A stretch of DNA of 26,420 nucleotides from positions 1 through 26,420 of IMG/VR virus record IMGVR_UViG_3300021368_000504. The stretch is one strand, 5' to 3'. Below are positions 19,752 to 26,420 of this stretch, one piece after another. Within the stretch, counting starts at the first letter, position 1, and each line of letters opens with the position of its first letter. The notes under the pieces were generated by a model that was given only the letters and a program-made list of their open reading frames with translations, was not told the DNA's origin and searched no databases. A program made the position numbers and the translations under genes. This stretch comes from a virus.

Positions 19752-22103
19752 TTAACAAAAGAAATAGGTAGAATTTGTGACATCCTCAGGTTTGAGGGTG
19801 CCAATGATGGGTGGCTCAGATGTAGCTCCGATTTGTTCCGCCCATGATTTTAGGTAGTTGTTCTCGGCAAACAAATGCATGTATACCTTTCGGACAATGC
19901 CCGATAGATTATCCATGTCGCTAGCACGGCATAAAACCGAGTCGTGAATGACGGCCAGCGGTGCGTCGAAGCGTATTGCAGATAGGTGTAATAGTGAGGC
20001 ATCCAGAGAATGAATTAGATTGGGAGCTGTGGCATTTTTATGATGTCGCAAGTCCACTTTATCTGAGTCACCAATGGCTGTCGTTACTTTCTGAACTGAT
20101 CCTAACAACTTCAATTCAATTCGTACTTTGTTTTGTTTCATCAGTTTTTGATGAACGACAAACCCTGAAGGTGTGACCCATTGTAGGTGTTCTTTACCAC
20201 CTTTAATAGCTTTAGTGACTTCAGCTTCAATCCACTTCATTACTGCCATTGGACCTGGTACGATGACATTCATCGCATCCCGTACGGCAGAAACCGTGAG
20301 TGTGAGATCGTCTTTATCAATCTCGACACCCTTATCTTTGAGTGCTTCACGGATGTAGCCACGGTTGGAATGAGGCTTTGCATTGTAAGGCACGGTCATC
20401 ACTACACGTTTGACCGTTTTCCTGTCCATATACGGTTGTATACTTTCAGGACAGTTGGGTGTAGCTTCAGCAGCGACAACCTTGTATGCGTCTTGTGGTT
20501 TATCACCTGGGACAACATTAACTAGTGTAGCTGTATCTTTATCGAGTGCAAGCCCGGCGAGGATTTGTAATCCTGAGCAGGTTGCATCGACAGCAATAGG
20601 TAAAGACGTGTGAGTTCTACTGCAAGCTATCATAATAGCATAGTATTCTTCACATGCAGCAAGGAAACACCAAGGCTCCTCAGCTGCTTCCCATTCTGAG
20701 ATGTTACCAATAGGATCTGTTGCTACTCTTTCAATTAGTAGTTCGTTAGCAACTGCCCATGAGTGTCTCTCAGACAATGGAGCTTTATCTAATCCATTAC
20801 CGTAGGTTGTTGCAACCTGAAACTTGAGCCAACGCTCAGCTTCAACTGTCACAAAGCAACTATCAGCAAATCTTATAAGTGACTTAGAGAAGTCACAACC
20901 TTGTGGTGTTAGAAAAGAGGGGATTGCGTATGCACGACCACGGTAGTCAAACGACCAGGGTAGATAGAATCTGTCAACATTTAGAAATCGTTGTACTAGT
21001 TCCATAGTCATGCGGGTTCGACAACTTTCTTTGAACACTGCTGCGTTCTTATTCATTGCCTCTGCCGCAGCTCGTTTGTAAGCTTGACGCGACTCATCAT
21101 TCTCTGCTATGTCCACTGGTTTGGGTGGTAGTGGTGTTTCATAGACAGGGATGAATTTCCCTACTTTTATTCCCCTCTCTTGTAGGGTACGAGCAACCGA
21201 CACAATAAACGGATTTAGTGTGTATGCAACTGATTGAATCCGGTTCAAAAAGGCTAGCGGTTTCTCTCCCTGTATTAGGGACGGATTGCCTCTCCTAACC
21301 AAATCATTACCGTGCATTAACTCGTTCATAAGGTATCCACCGGCTGCATCATTTGACCATGGTTTAGGTGGAATCAACATTGGCCATGCCATTGGTGCCA
21401 TCAGCTCTGCAGACGCCATTATATCGTCTTTAACGTCCATGAAAGCAGCGCTAGGTACGATATGAGTGTGTGTCTTTTTACCTAGCCTTTCAAGGCGTTT
21501 CTCGAACCATCCAGAGCACTCCATGATGCAGTCTAACAACCAGCCACCCAACTTAACACAGACAGCATCATCCCATCGTTTCCATCTGATGTCGTGCCTG
21601 TTCATCAGGGTGCGCATGATTGTCACCTTCTGTTGTGTGCCACATGCTTTGTGCCAGTAGTTTTTCTTCAGTGTGTTTAACAACCCTGGCGCAGTTGTTT
21701 CATAGAACCTGATCTGACACTCTTGTTCTACTGCTTTACCAATAGACTTGCATACGTTTTGCACCTTACTAGCATCTTCCTTGAATGAGAATACTTTATC
21801 GAAGGTTAGTTTAAGTGCAATAGCAGCACAAGTGTCAGCATCAACATCAGCAAGATAGTGTGCTATCTCTTTGAAAGCAACTCCATTCTTTCTTGCATGG
21901 ATCCTATCTGTTGTATCGTTAATGCGTGCGACAACTCTAGGCAGCAGACAATCAATGCTAGCAACCCCATAAATACTGGCACTGGCATAATCTTTGGATT
22001 CAACACTGTAGGTTTGTTTGTGTAATCGTGATTTACCTTGCTTGATAGCATCACGCTCTAGCGCGTATTGCTTCTCAATAAGTTCCTCACTTATCATCGG
22101 CAA
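19752..22103 (-). CDS. Phage single-subunit RNA polymerase (T7 gp1-like)
   Basis: A 783-residue protein (T7 RNAP is 883). Active-site residues are recognisable: Asp506 in AVDATCSGLQ (T7 Asp537), Lys565 and Tyr573 in KRVVMTVPYNAK (T7 Lys631, Tyr639) and Asp721 in AVIHDSVL (T7 Asp812). WSFDYRGRAY and RHHKNATAPNLIHSLDASLL are further family signatures. It would transcribe the metabolic and structural genes from phage-specific promoters. The start at 22103 is an ATG; a second ATG two codons on (MISEEL) is also possible. It is the first recognised T7-type gene after the early small-gene region and overlaps a 35-aa frame by 17 bases. Confidence 0.96.
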   Translation of the reverse strand: MPMISEELIEKQYALERDAIKQGKSRLHKQTYSVESKDYASASIYGVASIDCLLPRVVARINDTTDRIHARKNGVAFKEIAHYLADVDADTCAAIALKLTFDKVFSFKEDASKVQNVCKSIGKAVEQECQIRFYETTAPGLLNTLKKNYWHKACGTQQKVTIMRTLMNRHDIRWKRWDDAVCVKLGGWLLDCIMECSGWFEKRLERLGKKTHTHIVPSAAFMDVKDDIMASAELMAPMAWPMLIPPKPWSNDAAGGYLMNELMHGNDLVRRGNPSLIQGEKPLAFLNRIQSVAYTLNPFIVSVARTLQERGIKVGKFIPVYETPLPPKPVDIAENDESRQAYKRAAAEAMNKNAAVFKESCRTRMTMELVQRFLNVDRFYLPWSFDYRGRAYAIPSFLTPQGCDFSKSLIRFADSCFVTVEAERWLKFQVATTYGNGLDKAPLSERHSWAVANELLIERVATDPIGNISEWEAAEEPWCFLAACEEYYAIMIACSRTHTSLPIAVDATCSGLQILAGLALDKDTATLVNVVPGDKPQDAYKVVAAEATPNCPESIQPYMDRKTVKRVVMTVPYNAKPHSNRGYIREALKDKGVEIDKDDLTLTVSAVRDAMNVIVPGPMAVMKWIEAEVTKAIKGGKEHLQWVTPSGFVVHQKLMKQNKVRIELKLLGSVQKVTTAIGDSDKVDLRHHKNATAPNLIHSLDASLLHLSAIRFDAPLAVIHDSVLCRASDMDNLSGIVRKVYMHLFAENNYLKSWAEQIGATSEPPIIGTLKPEDVTNSTYFFC

Positions 22104-22194
22104 CCTGCTCCTGTATAAGTTGAATTAGCTCATCACGATGAGTGTGACCAAGAATCTCTTGACAAAGCATCTCAGCTTTCTCCGAGATCTTCAT
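22087..22194 (-). CDS. Tiny helical protein before RNA polymerase (35 aa)
   Basis: A 35-residue frame, MKISEKAEMLCQEILGHTHR followed by DELIQLIQEQVADDK. It bridges the 112-aa gene and the RNA polymerase gene with overlaps of 23 and 17 bases and reads as one amphipathic helix. One TGAGTGTG octamer (22139-22146) lies inside it, encoding GHTHR. Function unknown. Confidence 0.5.
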   Translation of the reverse strand: MKISEKAEMLCQEILGHTHRDELIQLIQEQVADDK

Positions 22195-22510
22195 CCTCTG
22201 AGATAAACTCAGCTTTGAGTAGGGTGACTTCTTCATCGTCTGCGATTGTAATTTCATTGTCAGGGTTTTGCATGGTCTTTTTGATGAAGGCATTGGCTGC
22301 CTTCGCCTGTTTGTAAGAACGTTCCTTGACTTTACCAGTCTTGGTATTGTGTACACGGATGACACAGAGGTGTTCCTCTGGGATGTGCCATCCATGCACT
22401 CTCCATTCTACAAAGTCTTCAAATGATAGGGAGTTGAATACTTCAGCAGGTGCTGCAGCAATATACTCCCAGTTGTTTGGAAAGTAAGGTCGCTTACTGT
22501 TCGAGCCCAT
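22172..22510 (-). CDS. Hypothetical early protein (112 aa)
   Basis: A 112-residue protein: MGSNSKRPYFPNNWEYIAAA, FNSLSFEDFVEWRVHGWHIP, VIRVHNTKTGKVKERSYKQA and an acidic tail. The RVHNTKTGKVKE(R)SYKQ segment looks like a beta hairpin. No family recognised with certainty. It lies directly before the RNA polymerase gene, where T7-like phages encode host take-over factors. The acidic C-terminus (SEDEDLGES) is notable. Confidence 0.7.
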   Translation of the reverse strand: MGSNSKRPYFPNNWEYIAAAPAEVFNSLSFEDFVEWRVHGWHIPEEHLCVIRVHNTKTGKVKERSYKQAKAANAFIKKTMQNPDNEITIADDEEVTLLKAEFISEDEDLGES

Positions 22511-22655
22511 AGGTTACGTTCATTAGTTCAGATTGGTACAGTGTAGCATACTCCTGGGCTTTCCAGGCTGCATCCTCTTCATCCTCAGCGAGGAATGATA
22601 CAGGATCACCCTCCCTAAGTGTAGCAGTGTAGATGTGTTGTTTGATCATTGACAT
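22494..22655 (-). CDS. Small early protein (53 aa)
   Basis: A 53-residue frame starting MSMIKQHIYTATLREGDPVS, then FLAEDEEDAAWKAQEYATLY. The ATG overlaps the stop of the 89-aa gene by one base and the end overlaps the 112-aa gene by 17 bases. Acidic, mixed strand and helix. Function unknown; overlap pattern and normal composition support a real gene. Confidence 0.6.
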   Translation of the reverse strand: MSMIKQHIYTATLREGDPVSFLAEDEEDAAWKAQEYATLYQSELMNVTYGLEQ

Positions 22656-22924
22656 CAGTTGAGTGCATCCATAGCATTGAGTTTCTTTTTAATCTCTTTG
22701 AGAGAGGAGATGTAATAATCTTTGAGACCTTCACAGTCTTTCTTGATGACTGGAGATTTAGCACACAACAAGTTACGGAACAACATGATGTAAGTCTGTG
22801 GATCACATGTTACCTTGATTGAATCCTCATTGTCAAGCTCAATGTACAGTTGATCCTCCCATTCAAAGTGATGCAAGTTCATCACGGATGCATCTTGAAT
22901 AGTGGTTTCGGTGGTAGTTTTCAT
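22655..22924 (-). CDS. Hypothetical early protein (89 aa)
   Basis: An 89-residue protein: MKTTTETTIQDASVMNLHHF, WEDQLYIELDNEDSIKVTCD and a helical half ending SLKEIKKKLNAMDALN. It has two Cys and no recognised domain. Its ATG overlaps the stop of the 69-aa gene and its stop overlaps the start of the 53-aa gene, one of several consecutive one-base overlaps in this block. Confidence 0.65.
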   Translation of the reverse strand: MKTTTETTIQDASVMNLHHFEWEDQLYIELDNEDSIKVTCDPQTYIMLFRNLLCAKSPVIKKDCEGLKDYYISSLKEIKKKLNAMDALN

Positions 22925-23133
22925 CAGACAGAAAGGTAGGTGGAAGCGTCTTCAATGTTTTCCATTTGGATGAAGTTCTCTCCATCCTCAGCATACAAAT
23001 CAAGTAGCTCTGCAAACTCATCACAAAGATCACGATGAGTTAGCATCTCAAAGTCACGGCGTGTATCCTCCTCAGGTTCTTCATCATGGAACAAGGAAAG
23101 ATAACTGTCAAGCAACCAATCTTTGAATTTCAT
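22924..23133 (-). CDS. Small acidic early protein (69 aa)
   Basis: A 69-residue, strongly acidic protein: MKFKDWLLDSYLSLFHDEEP, EEDTRRDFEMLTHRDLCDEF, AELLDLYAEDGENFIQMENI. Acidic small proteins of T7-like phages often mimic DNA or bind host enzymes, but that is only an analogy. Overlaps both neighbours (ATGA and TGATG). Confidence 0.62.
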   Translation of the reverse strand: MKFKDWLLDSYLSLFHDEEPEEDTRRDFEMLTHRDLCDEFAELLDLYAEDGENFIQMENIEDASTYLSV

Positions 23134-23213
23134 TTGTTGTTAAAGTTGATGAGATCTTGGTTAATTTTGTTAGCCTTTCGGCGTTGAAAATAGAACAAAA
23201 TTGCTTTGATCAT
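23130..23213 (-). CDS. Tiny basic peptide (27 aa)
   Basis: A 27-residue frame, MIKAILFYFQRRKANKINQD followed by LINFNNK. Hydrophobic start and basic middle could suit a membrane-surface peptide. It overlaps the 69-aa gene by ATGA and the membrane protein upstream by ATGA; this coupling on both sides is the main support. Confidence 0.42.
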   Translation of the reverse strand: MIKAILFYFQRRKANKINQDLINFNNK

Positions 23214-23329
23214 TTGTTGTTGTAATAACGTTGGGTGATAGAGTTGGCACGGAGCCAGATGATGAGTGTGGACATGATGCCAATCATGCCAATAACAGCA
23301 AAGATGATGTTAGATTCAGTGTTGATCAT
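23210..23329 (-). CDS. Small single-span membrane protein (39 aa)
   Basis: A 39-residue frame with a clear transmembrane helix, IIFAVIGMIGIMSTLIIWL (residues about 8-26), flanked by MINTESN and RANSITQRYYNNK. Positive charges after the helix suggest the N-terminus faces outward. Candidate roles are superinfection exclusion or a holin-like function, neither shown. The stop overlaps the next ATG (ATGA). One TGAGTGTG octamer (23263-23270) lies within. Confidence 0.55.
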   Translation of the reverse strand: MINTESNIIFAVIGMIGIMSTLIIWLRANSITQRYYNNK

Positions 23330-23496
23330 TAGTTTTTTGGGAAGTGTGTGCATACAGCGTCACATAACGCCTCAGTGAGTTCGTCCCTCAAATCCTCATA
23401 ATCCTCTGTATGTGGAAATACCGCACTGAATCTTGATTCGATAATACAATCAATGTCCTCCATGAGTTGTTCGCGTTGTTTGAGTAGTTCAATCAT
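23329..23496 (-). CDS. Small acidic helical protein (55 aa)
   Basis: A 55-residue frame: MIELLKQREQLMEDIDCIIE, SRFSAVFPHTEDYEDLRDEL, ending AVCTHFPKN. Acidic, helical, three Cys. Its stop codon overlaps the ATG of the membrane protein (TAATG), so the two are probably translated together. No family recognised. Confidence 0.6.
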   Translation of the reverse strand: MIELLKQREQLMEDIDCIIESRFSAVFPHTEDYEDLRDELTEALCDAVCTHFPKN

Positions 23497-23578
23497 TGAT
23501 TAAAGAAAGAAAGTAGTAGAAACAATCATGATTACCTATTTCATGGGCTAGGTTGAGCCACAAATAGTCATCATTCAT
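23489..23578 (-). CDS. Tiny hypothetical protein (29 aa)
   Basis: A 29-residue frame, MNDDYLWLNLAHEIGNHDCF followed by YYFLSLIND. The start overlaps the stop of the 110-aa gene by one base and the end overlaps the 55-aa gene by 8 bases. Supported mainly by this tight packing. Confidence 0.42.
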   Translation of the reverse strand: MNDDYLWLNLAHEIGNHDCFYYFLSLIND

Positions 23579-23910
23579 CAGATACGCTCGAATGTGTGTC
23601 CTTGGGTAAATGCATGACGCTCATCATGCTTGTCACTTACATACCAATGAAAGTCTTGTTGATATACATGATTGATGTGTCCAGCAGTAAGACCATTGAT
23701 GAGTGCGTTCAGTCTTGATTTAGTGGTGACTGATTGCCAGCCACCATCATACACTTGCACAGTGTCCTTGTCAACAACAGCGATCAAGTTGCCGTGCAGA
23801 TATACGCACGACACCTGACGTGAGTCAGAGTACATAACAGCAGTGTTTGACTTATGCCAGCCACGTTTATCAACAATGGCTTGAATCATCTCGCGTTCAA
23901 TCTTGCGCAT
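23578..23910 (-). CDS. Conserved-looking cyanophage early protein (110 aa)
   Basis: A 110-residue protein from the ATG at 23910: MRKIEREMIQAIVDKRGWHK, then SNTAVMYSDSRQVSCVYLHG and DGGWQSVTTKSRLNALINGL. The pattern of MRxIE start, VYLHGNxIA and W.S.TTKSRLNAL is one I recall from widespread small cyanophage proteins of unknown function. The frame extends 18 codons upstream to 23964, but that part (HTHNHTHDYTTHPT) is the translation of TGAGTGTG repeats in the leader and probably not coding. Confidence 0.75.
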   Translation of the reverse strand: MRKIEREMIQAIVDKRGWHKSNTAVMYSDSRQVSCVYLHGNLIAVVDKDTVQVYDGGWQSVTTKSRLNALINGLTAGHINHVYQQDFHWYVSDKHDERHAFTQGHTFERI

Positions 23911-23938
23911 AGTGGCTGTCGGGTGAGTCGTGTAGTCG

Positions 23939-23958
23939 TGAGTGTGATTATGAGTGTG
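23939..23958 (+). repeat. Two of about twelve copies of the octamer TGAGTGTG
   Basis: The plus strand carries TGAGTGTG at 23939 and 23951, 12 bases apart, in the leader of the 110-aa gene. Further copies start at 12141, 15279, 18510, 20297, 21463, 22139, 23263, 24039, 24819 and 25402. All have A or G directly before them, all are on the plus strand, and none was seen left of 12 kb. Some lie just upstream of start codons (24819, 25402), others inside genes. Confidence 0.6.
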
Positions 23959-23980
23959 AATCACAACAGTTGTTGATAAT

Positions 23981-24028
23981 AAATAAACAGTGCTGTCTAA
24001 TTAGAAATAAACAACACTGTTTAATTAG
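23981..24028 (-). repeat. Tandem 24-bp AT-rich repeat in an early leader
   Basis: Two adjacent 24-bp units, 23981-24004 and 24005-24028, of the form AAATAAACA(GTG/ACA)CTGT(C/T)TAATTAG on the plus strand, 20 of 24 positions identical. The pair sits about 70 bases upstream of the ATG at 23910, between TGAGTGTG copies, in one of the few gene-free stretches of the early block. A regulatory or protein-binding role is plausible. Confidence 0.6.
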
Positions 24029-24030
24029 AA

Positions 24031-24180
24031 TCACGTTGTGAGTGTGCTTTCTTTTAGTTCTTGAACCATGCAAACTGCCTTCTGATACTTATCAACTTCC
24101 AGCAGTTTTTCCATCATTACATTCTCAATGAAATCGAGAGTGAGAGGATGAGCTTGTGCGATAAATTCAGTGATAGACAT
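24031..24180 (-). CDS. Small early protein (49 aa)
   Basis: A 49-residue frame starting MSITEFIAQAHPLTLDFIEN, then VMMEKLLEVDKYQKAVCMVQ, ending ELKESTLTT. Predicted fully helical. The start lies 3 bases after the stop of the 53-aa gene. The last codons overlap a TGAGTGTG octamer (24039-24046). No family recognised. Confidence 0.6.
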   Translation of the reverse strand: MSITEFIAQAHPLTLDFIENVMMEKLLEVDKYQKAVCMVQELKESTLTT

Positions 24181-24183
24181 TAG

Positions 24184-24345
24184 TTAGACAGAAGGGGTAA
24201 CAGAAACTTCTTTGATGTTGAGTCCACAAAGTTGATTGTAGACGCGATTGGTGATAAGTTTACAAGCAGTTTTTGCGCTTGATTTCTCATGCCAAAATGT
24301 CACACACCCATCGTTGGTTTCAACTCTGACGCGATAGTTTGCCAT
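24184..24345 (-). CDS. Small early protein (53 aa)
   Basis: A 53-residue frame: MANYRVRVETNDGCVTFWHE, KSSAKTACKLITNRVYNQLC, GLNIKEVSVTPSV. The layout of two strands, a helix and a strand suggests a small alpha/beta fold. The ATG overlaps the stop of the 45-aa gene (TGATG). Function unknown. Confidence 0.62.
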   Translation of the reverse strand: MANYRVRVETNDGCVTFWHEKSSAKTACKLITNRVYNQLCGLNIKEVSVTPSV

Positions 24346-24482
24346 CAAAAATACTCCGGGTAGATGTGTGGATTGTCCATAATCTCATGGACTTGATCTT
24401 CAATGAGATACTCTTTGTTCTCATATTCACCAGACATAACTAATATCCGATAAATACTATCGAAGCGTTGTTCTTCAGTCAT
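24345..24482 (-). CDS. Small acidic early protein (45 aa)
   Basis: A 45-residue frame starting at 24482: MTEEQRFDSIYRILVMSGEY, then ENKEYLIEDQVHEIMDNPHI. An internal ATG at 24437 would give 30 residues; the longer form is preferred because its start overlaps the previous gene by 8 bases in the manner of its neighbours. Acidic, likely helical. Function unknown. Confidence 0.55.
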   Translation of the reverse strand: MTEEQRFDSIYRILVMSGEYENKEYLIEDQVHEIMDNPHIYPEYF

Positions 24483-24804
24483 CAAGTTGTTGCAGGATAG
24501 ATTGTGCTTTGAGTTCTACATAAGCCCAAACGAGTTTCTGTTTGAGTTGGGTGATATCTTCGCACTGACGAGCAAAGTATGCAAACGAACCCTCATCACC
24601 ACCAATGCAGTCGTAATACCAATCGGAAAGGAAGTCTTGGATCTCGTCATCGTTATCATCAAACTTAGCAGAAGTCTCACGGTAGTAGATAAAACCAGAG
24701 ACACCAGCAGACATACCATGCTCTGCAATGTCACGCAGTTCGTCAATATCGAACTCTTCACCGAGAATAGTTTGAACCATGTCTAAACCAACAGTAGCAG
24801 TCAT
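24475..24804 (-). CDS. Conserved-looking early phage protein, possibly DUF7222-like (109 aa)
   Basis: A 109-residue acidic protein: MTATVGLDMVQTILGEEFDI, DELRDIAEHGMSAGVSGFIY, YRETSAKFDDNDDEIQDFLS, and a helical end with KLVWAYVELKAQSIL. The HGMxAGVSGFIYYxET motif and the late LVWAYVE helix resemble a phage family I recall as DUF7222, of unknown function. A TGAGTGTG octamer ends 14 bases before the ATG... its leader has no Shine-Dalgarno sequence. The family name is from memory and less certain than the gene. Confidence 0.72.
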   Translation of the reverse strand: MTATVGLDMVQTILGEEFDIDELRDIAEHGMSAGVSGFIYYRETSAKFDDNDDEIQDFLSDWYYDCIGGDEGSFAYFARQCEDITQLKQKLVWAYVELKAQSILQQLDD

Positions 24805-24883
24805 GAATTGAAAAGGAATGAGTGTGTGATGTAGTAATGAACACTACAGGAAAGGTTGTACACGACAACCTAAAGTGTAATGA

Positions 24884-25093
24884 TCAGTATTGCAACTGAT
24901 AGTAATCTAAGGTAACACGTTGATCGTCATCAGTATCTACTACTAACTCAATGCTGTCTTGATACATCTTGCGTTCGGTTCCATTCTTCATAGTGTTGAA
25001 GTAACCAACAGCGTCAGTGATGTTATCGAAGTCTTCCCAAACATCAGGCGGAGAGTCATGAAACTCATCGTGAATAAGAATAGAGAAAAGCAT
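24884..25093 (-). CDS. Small acidic early protein (69 aa)
   Basis: A 69-residue acidic protein: MLFSILIHDEFHDSPPDVWE, DFDNITDAVGYFNTMKNGTE, RKMYQDSIELVVDTDDDQRV and TLDYYQLQY. Alternating strands and a helix suggest a compact alpha/beta fold. It stands alone, with about 80 bases to the next gene and 36 to the previous. No family recognised. Confidence 0.65.
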   Translation of the reverse strand: MLFSILIHDEFHDSPPDVWEDFDNITDAVGYFNTMKNGTERKMYQDSIELVVDTDDDQRVTLDYYQLQY

Positions 25094-25129
25094 TGAGAGT
25101 TAGTGTAGAACAGTGATGATCAGTAGCTA

Positions 25130-25396
25130 TCACATAGCAGGAGCAAGCTCAACATACTTAACACCGTCAGCTTTGCAAACGTTGTTGATGAACTTACCGA
25201 GTGAACGAGCAGCGTTATCAATGTTGAACTTGACGATAGCGCGACGGCTAACATTGTCATAACGATACACAGCACCAGACTTGAACAGAACAGTTACAGT
25301 GCCAGAGATAGCATCGGTGCAGATAGAGTCAACAACAGTGGAGTTGATGTAGTTAGAAGCAGCAGCAGACAGAGATTGGAAAGAAGCGTTGAACAT
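25130..25396 (-). CDS. KTSC-domain-like early protein (88 aa)
   Basis: An 88-residue protein with the ATG at 25396. The centre, VTVLFKSGAVYRYDNVSRRA and then NIDNAARSLGKFINNVCK, follows the KTSC domain pattern: two strands with SGxxYxYxxV, then a helix and a xSxGKFxNxxxK ending. KTSC domains occur in short phage and bacterial proteins and as a C-terminal part of some lysyl-tRNA synthetases; they are presumed to bind RNA. It is the first sizeable gene after the early promoter. A TGAGTGTG octamer lies 5 bases upstream of the ATG. An upstream start at 25432 is less likely. Confidence 0.7.
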   Translation of the reverse strand: MFNASFQSLSAAASNYINSTVVDSICTDAISGTVTVLFKSGAVYRYDNVSRRAIVKFNIDNAARSLGKFINNVCKADGVKYVELAPAM

Positions 25397-25521
25397 AATA
25401 ATGAGTGTGTTTGATAGTGAATAAGTAGTCAATGAGATGACTACATAAAACCAACCGAGAGTGGAATGGTTTGAGGTAGTGATCTGTGTTTGTCTGACTC
25501 TGTCAGTATAGCAGCTCCAGC

Positions 25522-25659
25522 TCAGCTTGTGTGGGTTGGTGTGACACTAGCTCGTTTGTCCATGATCAATGCTTGACGCTCAGTGTAGTAATAAGACTCA
25601 GCGTGTCTCGTTGCTGGAAGCGTTGGACGTTGTGGCATTGGATTCAACCAGGAGTACAT
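25522..25659 (-). CDS. Small early protein closest to the early promoter (45 aa)
   Basis: A 45-residue frame starting MYSWLNPMPQRPTLPATRHA, then ESYYYTERQALIMDKRASVT. An internal ATG (MPQRP) is possible. It is the first frame downstream of the sigma70 promoter, about 140 bases from the predicted transcription start, and a TATAAT box lies 27 bases upstream of its ATG. Composition looks protein-like (ESYYYTERQALIMDKRA). No family recognised. Confidence 0.5.
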   Translation of the reverse strand: MYSWLNPMPQRPTLPATRHAESYYYTERQALIMDKRASVTPTHTS

Positions 25660-25685
25660 TCGAGCTTGTCTGTCTTGTTGCTCCT

Positions 25686-25691
25686 ATTATA
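25686..25691 (-). promoter_or_regulatory. Possible second host-type -10 box (TATAAT)
   Basis: A perfect TATAAT on the minus strand, 26 bases before the ATG of the 45-aa frame. No good -35 hexamer is seen at 16-18 bases, so on its own it is weak evidence for a promoter. A further TATACT at 25505-25510 upstream of the KTSC-like gene has the same limitation. Confidence 0.3.
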
Positions 25692-25763
25692 ACCACAGCT
25701 TGATCCGGTTTGGTGCTGGTGTTGTGCAGGTTGTTAAACTGGTTGCGCGACAGCTGTTGTTGT

Positions 25764-25775
25764 GAATACGTATTC
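25764..25775. repeat. Perfect 12-bp palindrome in the early leader
   Basis: GAATACGTATTC, fully self-complementary, about 20 bases downstream of the predicted start of the early transcript. It could be an operator. No matching copy was noticed elsewhere. The 240 bases between the 45-aa and 54-aa frames (25660-25903) hold no convincing gene, only this site, promoter elements and other palindromes. Confidence 0.45.
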
Positions 25776-25802
25776 GTATCGGTGTAACACACAGTACGAA
25801 AC

Positions 25803-25830
25803 AGTATAACATGTTTCAACCGGTTGTCAA
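25803..25830 (-). promoter_or_regulatory. Strong host sigma70-type early promoter
   Basis: Minus strand TTGACA (25825-25830), 16-base spacer, TATACT (25803-25808). The -35 box is the perfect consensus and the -10 differs at one position; TG lies just before it. It reads leftward into the early small genes, as expected for a T7-like phage that relies on host polymerase first. An AACCGGTT palindrome (25818-25825) sits in the spacer and a related AACCGGTA (25829-25836) overlaps the -35 box, so a regulator or phage protein could compete here. Confidence 0.75.
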
Positions 25831-25857
25831 CCGGTAGTGTACTGTGTGTAAACTGGC

Positions 25858-25871
25858 ACCCCCCAGGGGGT
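25858..25871. repeat. GC-rich palindrome upstream of the early promoter
   Basis: ACCCCC-CA-GGGGGT, a perfect inverted repeat with a 2-base centre, 28 bases upstream of the -35 box. Its right half, CCAGGGGGTAA, recurs exactly at 25982-25992. In this AT-rich stretch the GC block stands out. It may bind a regulator. Confidence 0.45.
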
Positions 25872-25903
25872 AAAAATAGTACACCTGTACTACACAATAG
25901 ACT

Positions 25904-26068
25904 TCAGAAATTTTTACCGTTTTTCAACCGGTTTAACTCATCTAACCGGTTTAACTCGGTTACATACGGTGGTACCCAGGTCCAGGGGGTAAGACACTGC
26001 TGTAAGTTAACGGGATGTTTAAAACACATGGTGGTCATCATTGTAAACCACAGGACTATGTTACTCAT
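25904..26068 (-). CDS. Small early frame with LNRL repeat (54 aa)
   Basis: A 54-residue frame: MSNIVLWFTMMTTMCFKHPV, NLQQCLTPWTWVPPYVTELN, RLDELNRLKNGKNF. Its ATG overlaps the stop of the 106-aa gene (TAATG), the coupling seen at many real genes here. The start is hydrophobic; the end has two LNRL units spaced six residues apart, encoded by exact 14-bp repeats (25926-25939 and 25944-25957) that contain AACCGGTT. It may be a real gene, or the repeats may mainly be operator DNA. Confidence 0.42.
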   Translation of the reverse strand: MSNIVLWFTMMTTMCFKHPVNLQQCLTPWTWVPPYVTELNRLDELNRLKNGKNF

Positions 26069-26388
26069 TATACAACCATTTTAGTATTGTCATTTGGTTC
26101 TTCATGTACTTCGGGACCAAAACCATGCTTAGCAATGTAGTTAAGATAACCATCATCGGTCTTATCTGTCTCACTGCCGTATTGTTTAACCATTTCATAG
26201 CACCAATCCCTTATCTCGTTTACAGTCGGTGTAAAACGTGCTACACCAAACACTGCTCCTACTTGTTTAGGAGTAAACCGTATCTGTGCTGCATTCTTGT
26301 AGAAGACACGGAAGTAATTAGGACCGGTTCTATTCCGGTGATACACTACGTTAGTGTTATTGTTGTTCTTAGGGAATGCGTATTCCAT
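26068..26388 (-). CDS. Hypothetical early protein upstream of the early promoter (106 aa)
   Basis: A 106-residue protein: MEYAFPKNNNNTNVVYHRNR, TGPNYFRVFYKNAAQIRFTP, KQVGAVFGVARFTPTVNEIR, DWCYEMVKQYG and an acidic end. The Asn-rich start and the RFTPKQVGAVFGVARFTPTVNEI middle, which could be a helix-turn-helix-like segment, are the visible features. It precedes the sigma70 promoter, so it belongs to another transcript starting to the right; a TATACT lies at 26407-26412 but its -35 region falls outside the window. No family recognised. Confidence 0.62.
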   Translation of the reverse strand: MEYAFPKNNNNTNVVYHRNRTGPNYFRVFYKNAAQIRFTPKQVGAVFGVARFTPTVNEIRDWCYEMVKQYGSETDKTDDGYLNYIAKHGFGPEVHEEPNDNTKMVV

Positions 26389-26420
26389 CTGTGAGTGGGT
26401 AGTAGTAGTATAATAAGAGT

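Follow-up and report, generated by a model that had tools for sequence, protein, structure and literature searches.

A putative early promoter in the predicted terminal repeat of a T7-like cyanophage clade, woven into a terminal dyad and accompanied by a LexA operator match

Our analysis suggests that an early promoter (P1) of a T7-like cyanophage clade is carried in the direct terminal repeat (DTR) and is part of a terminal dyad; host LexA would be its likeliest regulator. We give this reading a probability of about 0.4. It is based on a 26.4-kb virus fragment (the window, meaning the whole stretch of 26,420 nucleotides analyzed), which is an internal contig of a cyanopodovirus. On entry, the host RNA polymerase would use P1 and a second promoter-like element, P2, to transcribe the early genes up to that of the phage RNA polymerase. 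Host LexA at the genome end would dampen P1 until the host SOS response is triggered. The dyad, whose position in the DTR is fixed, would form a stem-loop or a cruciform and serve end maturation.

Conservation in the clade, homology of the repeat boundaries and enrichment of the LexA motif in hosts are read directly from the sequences. From these we infer the firing of P1, the binding and repression by LexA, and the folding and role of the dyad. The main rival is a repressor of phage origin acting at AACCGGTT, a palindromic 8-mer found at the promoter, and it comes close behind. The confidences of the rival readings do not sum to one, because an interpretation of the LexA box as a hairpin is compatible with both views of AACCGGTT.

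The predicted terminal repeat and its promoter

The window genes are all on the minus strand and include those for RNA polymerase (19752-22103), primase/helicase, DNA polymerase, psbA, portal and capsid. In a 44-kb relative (G006), a terminase-like gene is located upstream of homologues of the 106-aa ORF at 26068-26388 and the 54-aa ORF at 25904-26068. Judged from this gene order, the region at 25.4-26.1 kb is the junction of the right genome end with the early region. Relatives were gathered through the 106-aa protein, which yielded 23 contigs. The same promoter region is found in nine of them. Together with the window these make ten contigs, representing eight diverged rows that are approximately 71-94 % identical. 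The AACCGGTT sites are absent from contigs with a polymerase no more than 67 % identical. A DNA search of the 1-kb region against a phage collection gave no match, and no known RNA family was found in 25400-26420.

The DTR was placed by homology. The exact terminal repeats of P-SSP7 and Syn5 are 206 and 237 bp long, respectively. The former begins directly after GGCAGAAATGTCTGAGGTCATA and stops directly before ACCTGTT, and the latter begins after GGCATAATTTTGTGAAGGGGTA and stops before ATCTGTT. In the window clade and most relatives, the markers AAATTTCTGAAG..CTAT and ATCTGT bracket a block of similar length, and the bounded block measures 112-255 bp in most cyanopodovirus loci examined. The boundary motifs sit between the terminase gene (in G006) and the early genes, as a T7-type DTR requires. 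The resulting prediction is a DTR of about 142 bp at 25756-25897 (minus strand).

At its left boundary is the conserved element AAAATTTCTGAAGTCTA (25898-25914, minus strand), unique in the window and kept in most relatives. This element abuts the DTR start in P-SSP7, and does so more loosely in Syn5. It was also considered as a repeated phage promoter, which was rejected on its single good copy in the window. The right boundary is AGCTGTC (25749-25755, minus strand), the counterpart of the T7 concatemer-junction or class II pause motif ATCTGT[T/C]. ATCTGTT is a conserved class II pause sequence that is also present at the phage concatemer junction (PMC11617373). At position 25754 the window differs from its nine close relatives, which all have ATCTGT where it has AGCTGT, even the otherwise near-identical contig L004; this may reflect a variant or a sequence error. 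Two palindromes are located between the boundaries. ACCCCCTGGGGGGT (25858-25871) has a C-run/G-run counterpart in P-SSP7 (ACCCCCGTAGGGGGGT) and in other clades. The 12-bp palindrome GAATACGTATTC (25764-25775) is exact in the window and in five of the eight rows overall, with one or two changes in the rest.

P1 is a sigma70-type promoter, TTGACA-N16-TATACT, at 25803-25830 on the minus strand (TTGACA 25830-25825, TATACT 25808-25803), with a predicted start near 25796. It matches 11 of 12 consensus positions and is the joint best in 20000-26420, in agreement with the near-consensus promoter proposed in the sequence-only reading. Across the clade TTGACA is invariant and the -10 box is variable, and the spacing is 16-19 in relatives. 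Because the boundary homology to P-SSP7 and Syn5 sets the repeat at 25756-25897, P1 is probably located wholly inside the predicted DTR. A promoter scan of the relatives' repeats found a strong TTGACA promoter in the DTR of the window clade only. In repeats of other clades, promoter-like matches are limited to L158 and the S-B28 group (L151, L219, L220), all weaker; L223 has such matches too, but without a clear left marker. P1 is flanked by an 11-bp inverted repeat, with arms ACACACAGTAC (25839-25849) and GTACTGTGTGT (25787-25797) as read on the minus strand. This repeat is perfect in the window; in L013 the arms are altered and still partly matching.

The second promoter-like element, P2 (AACCGGAT ... 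TATAAT, 25686-25710, minus strand), is located outside the DTR. It has no TTGACA. Its TATAAT box (25686-25691) is invariant in the clade and nearer the first early ORF. P1 is at most a candidate for the main early promoter of the earlier description. The first early ORF (25522-25659, minus strand) encodes 45 aa and is clade-specific, being present in 11 close loci and in none of 77 distant ones. The second (25130-25393) contains a KTSC domain (PF13619) and also occurs in clades that lack the AACCGGTT sites.

A LexA operator match near the predicted genome end

About 5 bp in from the predicted genome end is the 16-mer TAGTACAGGTGTACTA (25877-25892). It matches the LexA operator of picocyanobacteria, TAGTACA-N2-TGTACTA, without a mismatch (PMC2921402). 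The cyanobacterial LexA motif has been given as AGTACWNWTGTACT (PMC3091678). In 61 Cyanobiaceae genomes, AGTACANNTGTACT has 53 matches compared to 2 for the reversed pattern, an enrichment of approximately 25-fold. In hosts the motif precedes the genes for UmuD (NF007621), for a DUF1651 family (7 loci) and for a family of small CVCMTC ORFs (8 loci). The last two, both small and uncharacterized families of Cyanobiaceae (L224-L253, L209, L210), repeatedly have LexA-type operators upstream and are likely SOS genes; the CVCMTC ORFs have 80-94 aa.

The box is exact or has one mismatch in all eight rows of the clade. The other DTRs have 3-6 mismatches, except L145 with one and L019 and L025, which are related to each other, with two. 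The LexA-like sites in these three terminal repeats are possibly independent gains, and the one in L145 is located about 2393 bp upstream of the RNA polymerase gene. As a sequence match conserved in the clade, 25877-25892 is a LexA operator. It does not overlap P1: the predicted start of this promoter is about 88 bp downstream of the center of the box. No good promoter overlapping the box was found in the window clade. Binding and repression by host LexA would be the likeliest regulatory input at P1.

Alternatively, the palindrome may be a hairpin terminator, if a weak one, or a further DTR hairpin, with P1 constitutive. TAGTACAGGTGTACTA-TTTTT folds at -6.4 kcal/mol, with 6 of 200 shuffles as good, and inverted repeats abound on both strands of the clade's DTRs. 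In addition, two of the eight rows have C instead of the T of the LexA consensus. However, all rows have A as the first base of the loop and six of eight have T as the last, which suits the LexA consensus and not a hairpin. The T-run is just three to five bases, and the hairpin interpretation must also accommodate an exact match to an operator so enriched in hosts. We consider this interpretation possible rather than probable.

Paired AACCGGTT sites and the terminal dyad

Exact copies of AACCGGTT are found in the window only at 25818-25825, 25926-25933 and 25944-25951, all inside 134 bp. Shuffles give an expectation of 0.14 in the 26.4 kb; the largest shuffle has two copies and none has three. 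The sequence-only reading had placed one copy in the promoter spacer and two upstream, and both the positions and the excess over background are confirmed. Site B (25818-25825, minus strand) covers the last base of the -35 hexamer and half of the spacer. The related site that had been proposed over the -35 box, site A (25829-25836), is present, but covers just two bases of the hexamer. It is AACCGGTA on the plus strand and TACCGGTT on the minus strand, with one mismatch to AACCGGTT. Together with B it gives ACCGGTT-GAC-AACCGGT.

Site A is AACCGGTT in six of the eight rows and TACCGGTT in the window and L007. Most rows have a second AACCGGTT, site C, 21 bp from A. The window has a degenerate copy there and a perfect one at 11 bp, and L007 has three copies at 11- and 10-bp steps. 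All eight rows have two AACCGGTT-type sites at the promoter, spaced by 11 or 21. Site A and TTGACAAC form the block ACCGGTTGACAAC, invariant across the clade, which includes GACAAC, mostly outside the arms. Conservation by itself was rejected as proof of the sites, since 81 of 143 DTR columns are invariant. In the same alignment, the conservation of site A is equaled in 17 of 136 windows of eight columns.

The two upstream copies do not extend this arrangement to a four-site array, as had been suggested. They are located in the last codons of the 54-aa ORF at the right genome end (25904-26068, minus strand) and represent one 18-bp tandem duplication (GAGTTAAACCGGTT...), in frame (ELNRLDELNRLK; codons GAG TTA AAC CGG TTA GAT GAG TTA AAC CGG TTG). 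Among the relatives they are shared only with the near-identical L004. Because they arise from a single in-frame duplication that is not conserved further, they add little. A different tandem array, AAACTAGTT/AAACTGGTT in four to five copies, is found just upstream of the DTR in L013.

Site A forms one arm, and C or B the other, of an inverted repeat with a stem of 7-10, which starts 59-62 bp into the DTR in all eight rows. In other clades, 7 of 24 non-redundant DTRs have an inverted repeat at offset 48-66, compared to 1.3 expected and with none of 300 shuffles reaching 7, a statistic that is somewhat generous because the choice of band followed an initial inspection of the matches. By the criterion used, the other 17 have no dyad at this offset. 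The dyads differ in sequence: CAACAGT..ACTGTTG (L014), CAATAGT..ACTATTG (L018), GGTAGTC..GACTACC (L020), CAACTAGC..GCTAGTTG (L023), TTAGATC..GATCTAA (L024), ACTAGAT..ATCTAGT (L177) and AGTATC..GATACT (L194). The arms in L014, L018 and L021 differ by matched changes. Within the window clade no compensatory change was found, apart from U-G pairs at one position in two rows.

Dyads near the same place in several other clades, each with a sequence of its own, lead us to read the arms as terminal-repeat structure. The AACCGGTT arms are probably kept in this role, with the -35 box built into an arm and the loop. The repeats of the window clade fold better than shuffles on both strands. Low folding energy was rejected as proof of RNA structure, since both strands fold equally, as symmetric DNA would. 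For the same reason, the fold energy does not distinguish RNA from DNA, or a structural role from protein binding. Within the clade the arms stay fixed as AACCGGTT, each a palindrome in its own right. A binding site for a protein accounts for this at least as well as a constraint on pairing only.

In the main rival, a phage-encoded protein would bind two or three of the palindromes A, B and C as an operator, on the same helix face (11 and 21 bp apart). Bound over the -35 box and spacer of P1, it would stop transcription by the host polymerase once the phage RNA polymerase takes over. The -35 box and spacer are the classic position for a repressor, and the sites are located there. Both arms, each a self-complementary 8-mer, are exact in six of the eight rows, whereas the bases between them and the -10 box vary. 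L007 keeps its three copies at 11- and 10-bp steps. However, the contigs of the clade contain no HTH_3 regulator, the scanned phage ORFs contain no Pfam regulator, and searches with PHROGs and PADLOC found no recognized regulator. The 45-aa first early ORF is a candidate AACCGGTT binder by position only. Its structure model is a single helix with a pLDDT of 60 and is uninformative, and the idea that the ORF encodes a DNA-binding protein was set aside. Dyads of other sequence at the same place in clades without a promoter there also argue against an operator. We regard a phage repressor as a serious but rather doubtful candidate.

A host regulator that senses host physiology is an improbable binder of AACCGGTT. 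P1 must first be read by the host polymerase, and single sites exist in host genomes. However, CAACCGGTTG shows no excess in 21 host genomes (49 matches, compared to 69 for the reversed control). AACCGGTT pairs are found at 4 places in 151 host genomes, compared to about 12 control places, and all four are inside long ORFs. The promoter arrangement AACCGGTTGACA-N15-20-TANNNT is absent from the 151 genomes, though the LexA motif is easily found by a like approach; the LexA-motif search on the same host family (53 compared to 2) serves as the positive control. A host AACCGGTT regulon was rejected on this lack of signal. L036, the sole unrelated contig with a spaced AACCGGTT pair of such form, was dismissed as repeat-rich. 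Regulation at the promoter, as the sequence-only reading proposed, is plausible given the conserved symmetric element over the -35 box and spacer in ten contigs. Its suggestion of a host factor binding AACCGGTT is not supported. That reading overlooked the adjacent LexA operator, the position of the promoter in the predicted DTR and the unrelated inverted repeats that other clades have where the pair sits.

Implications and comparison with known systems

If host LexA is the regulator, as we favor, the host SOS response might gate the first transcription of the incoming genome in a lytic T7-like cyanophage clade. The DTR of these phages, in which no repressor or integrase is recognized, would carry both an operator for host LexA and an early promoter of host type. 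We offer this tentatively. T7-like cyanophages infect lytically, with no stable lysogens, and when lytic-cycle repressors were sought in them by homology, none was found (PMC8776855). The contigs of the clade, which are fragments, gave no match to an integrase family. If true, an operator of the host SOS system at the early promoter would place infection under host-borne control, linked to the UV and DNA damage that marine picocyanobacteria face every day. The pattern AAATTTCTGAAG...ATCTGT provides a simple rule to locate genome ends in uncultured cyanopodovirus contigs. From the comparison, inverted repeats are also seen to recur at one position in the DTR with a sequence that changes.

The window 16-mer is identical to the picocyanobacterial LexA operator, and its N2 core, GG, is among the commonest in hosts. 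Host LexA operators sit beside SOS genes, whereas that of the window is located in a phage terminal repeat, well upstream of the predicted start. The LexA-gp7 lysis switch of GIL01, a Bacillus tectivirus, likewise has a host LexA box by an early promoter, and no classical repressor was found (PMC6182141). Unlike the window clade, which has one box, no integrase found and no known lysogeny, GIL01 is temperate and is controlled by LexA-gp7 co-repression (PMC6182141).

The DTRs of P-SSP7 and Syn5 resemble that of the window in the left-boundary element, the C-run/G-run block and the ATCTGT-type right boundary. However, both lack the LexA box and AACCGGTT, and no promoter was found in the scan of the P-SSP7 repeat, whereas the window clade has P1. 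The T7 concatemer junction is similar in its ATCTGT motif at the repeat end, with the terminase gene upstream and the early genes downstream. In T7 the strong host promoters are located beyond the terminal repeat, whereas P1 of the window clade is predicted to be inside it.
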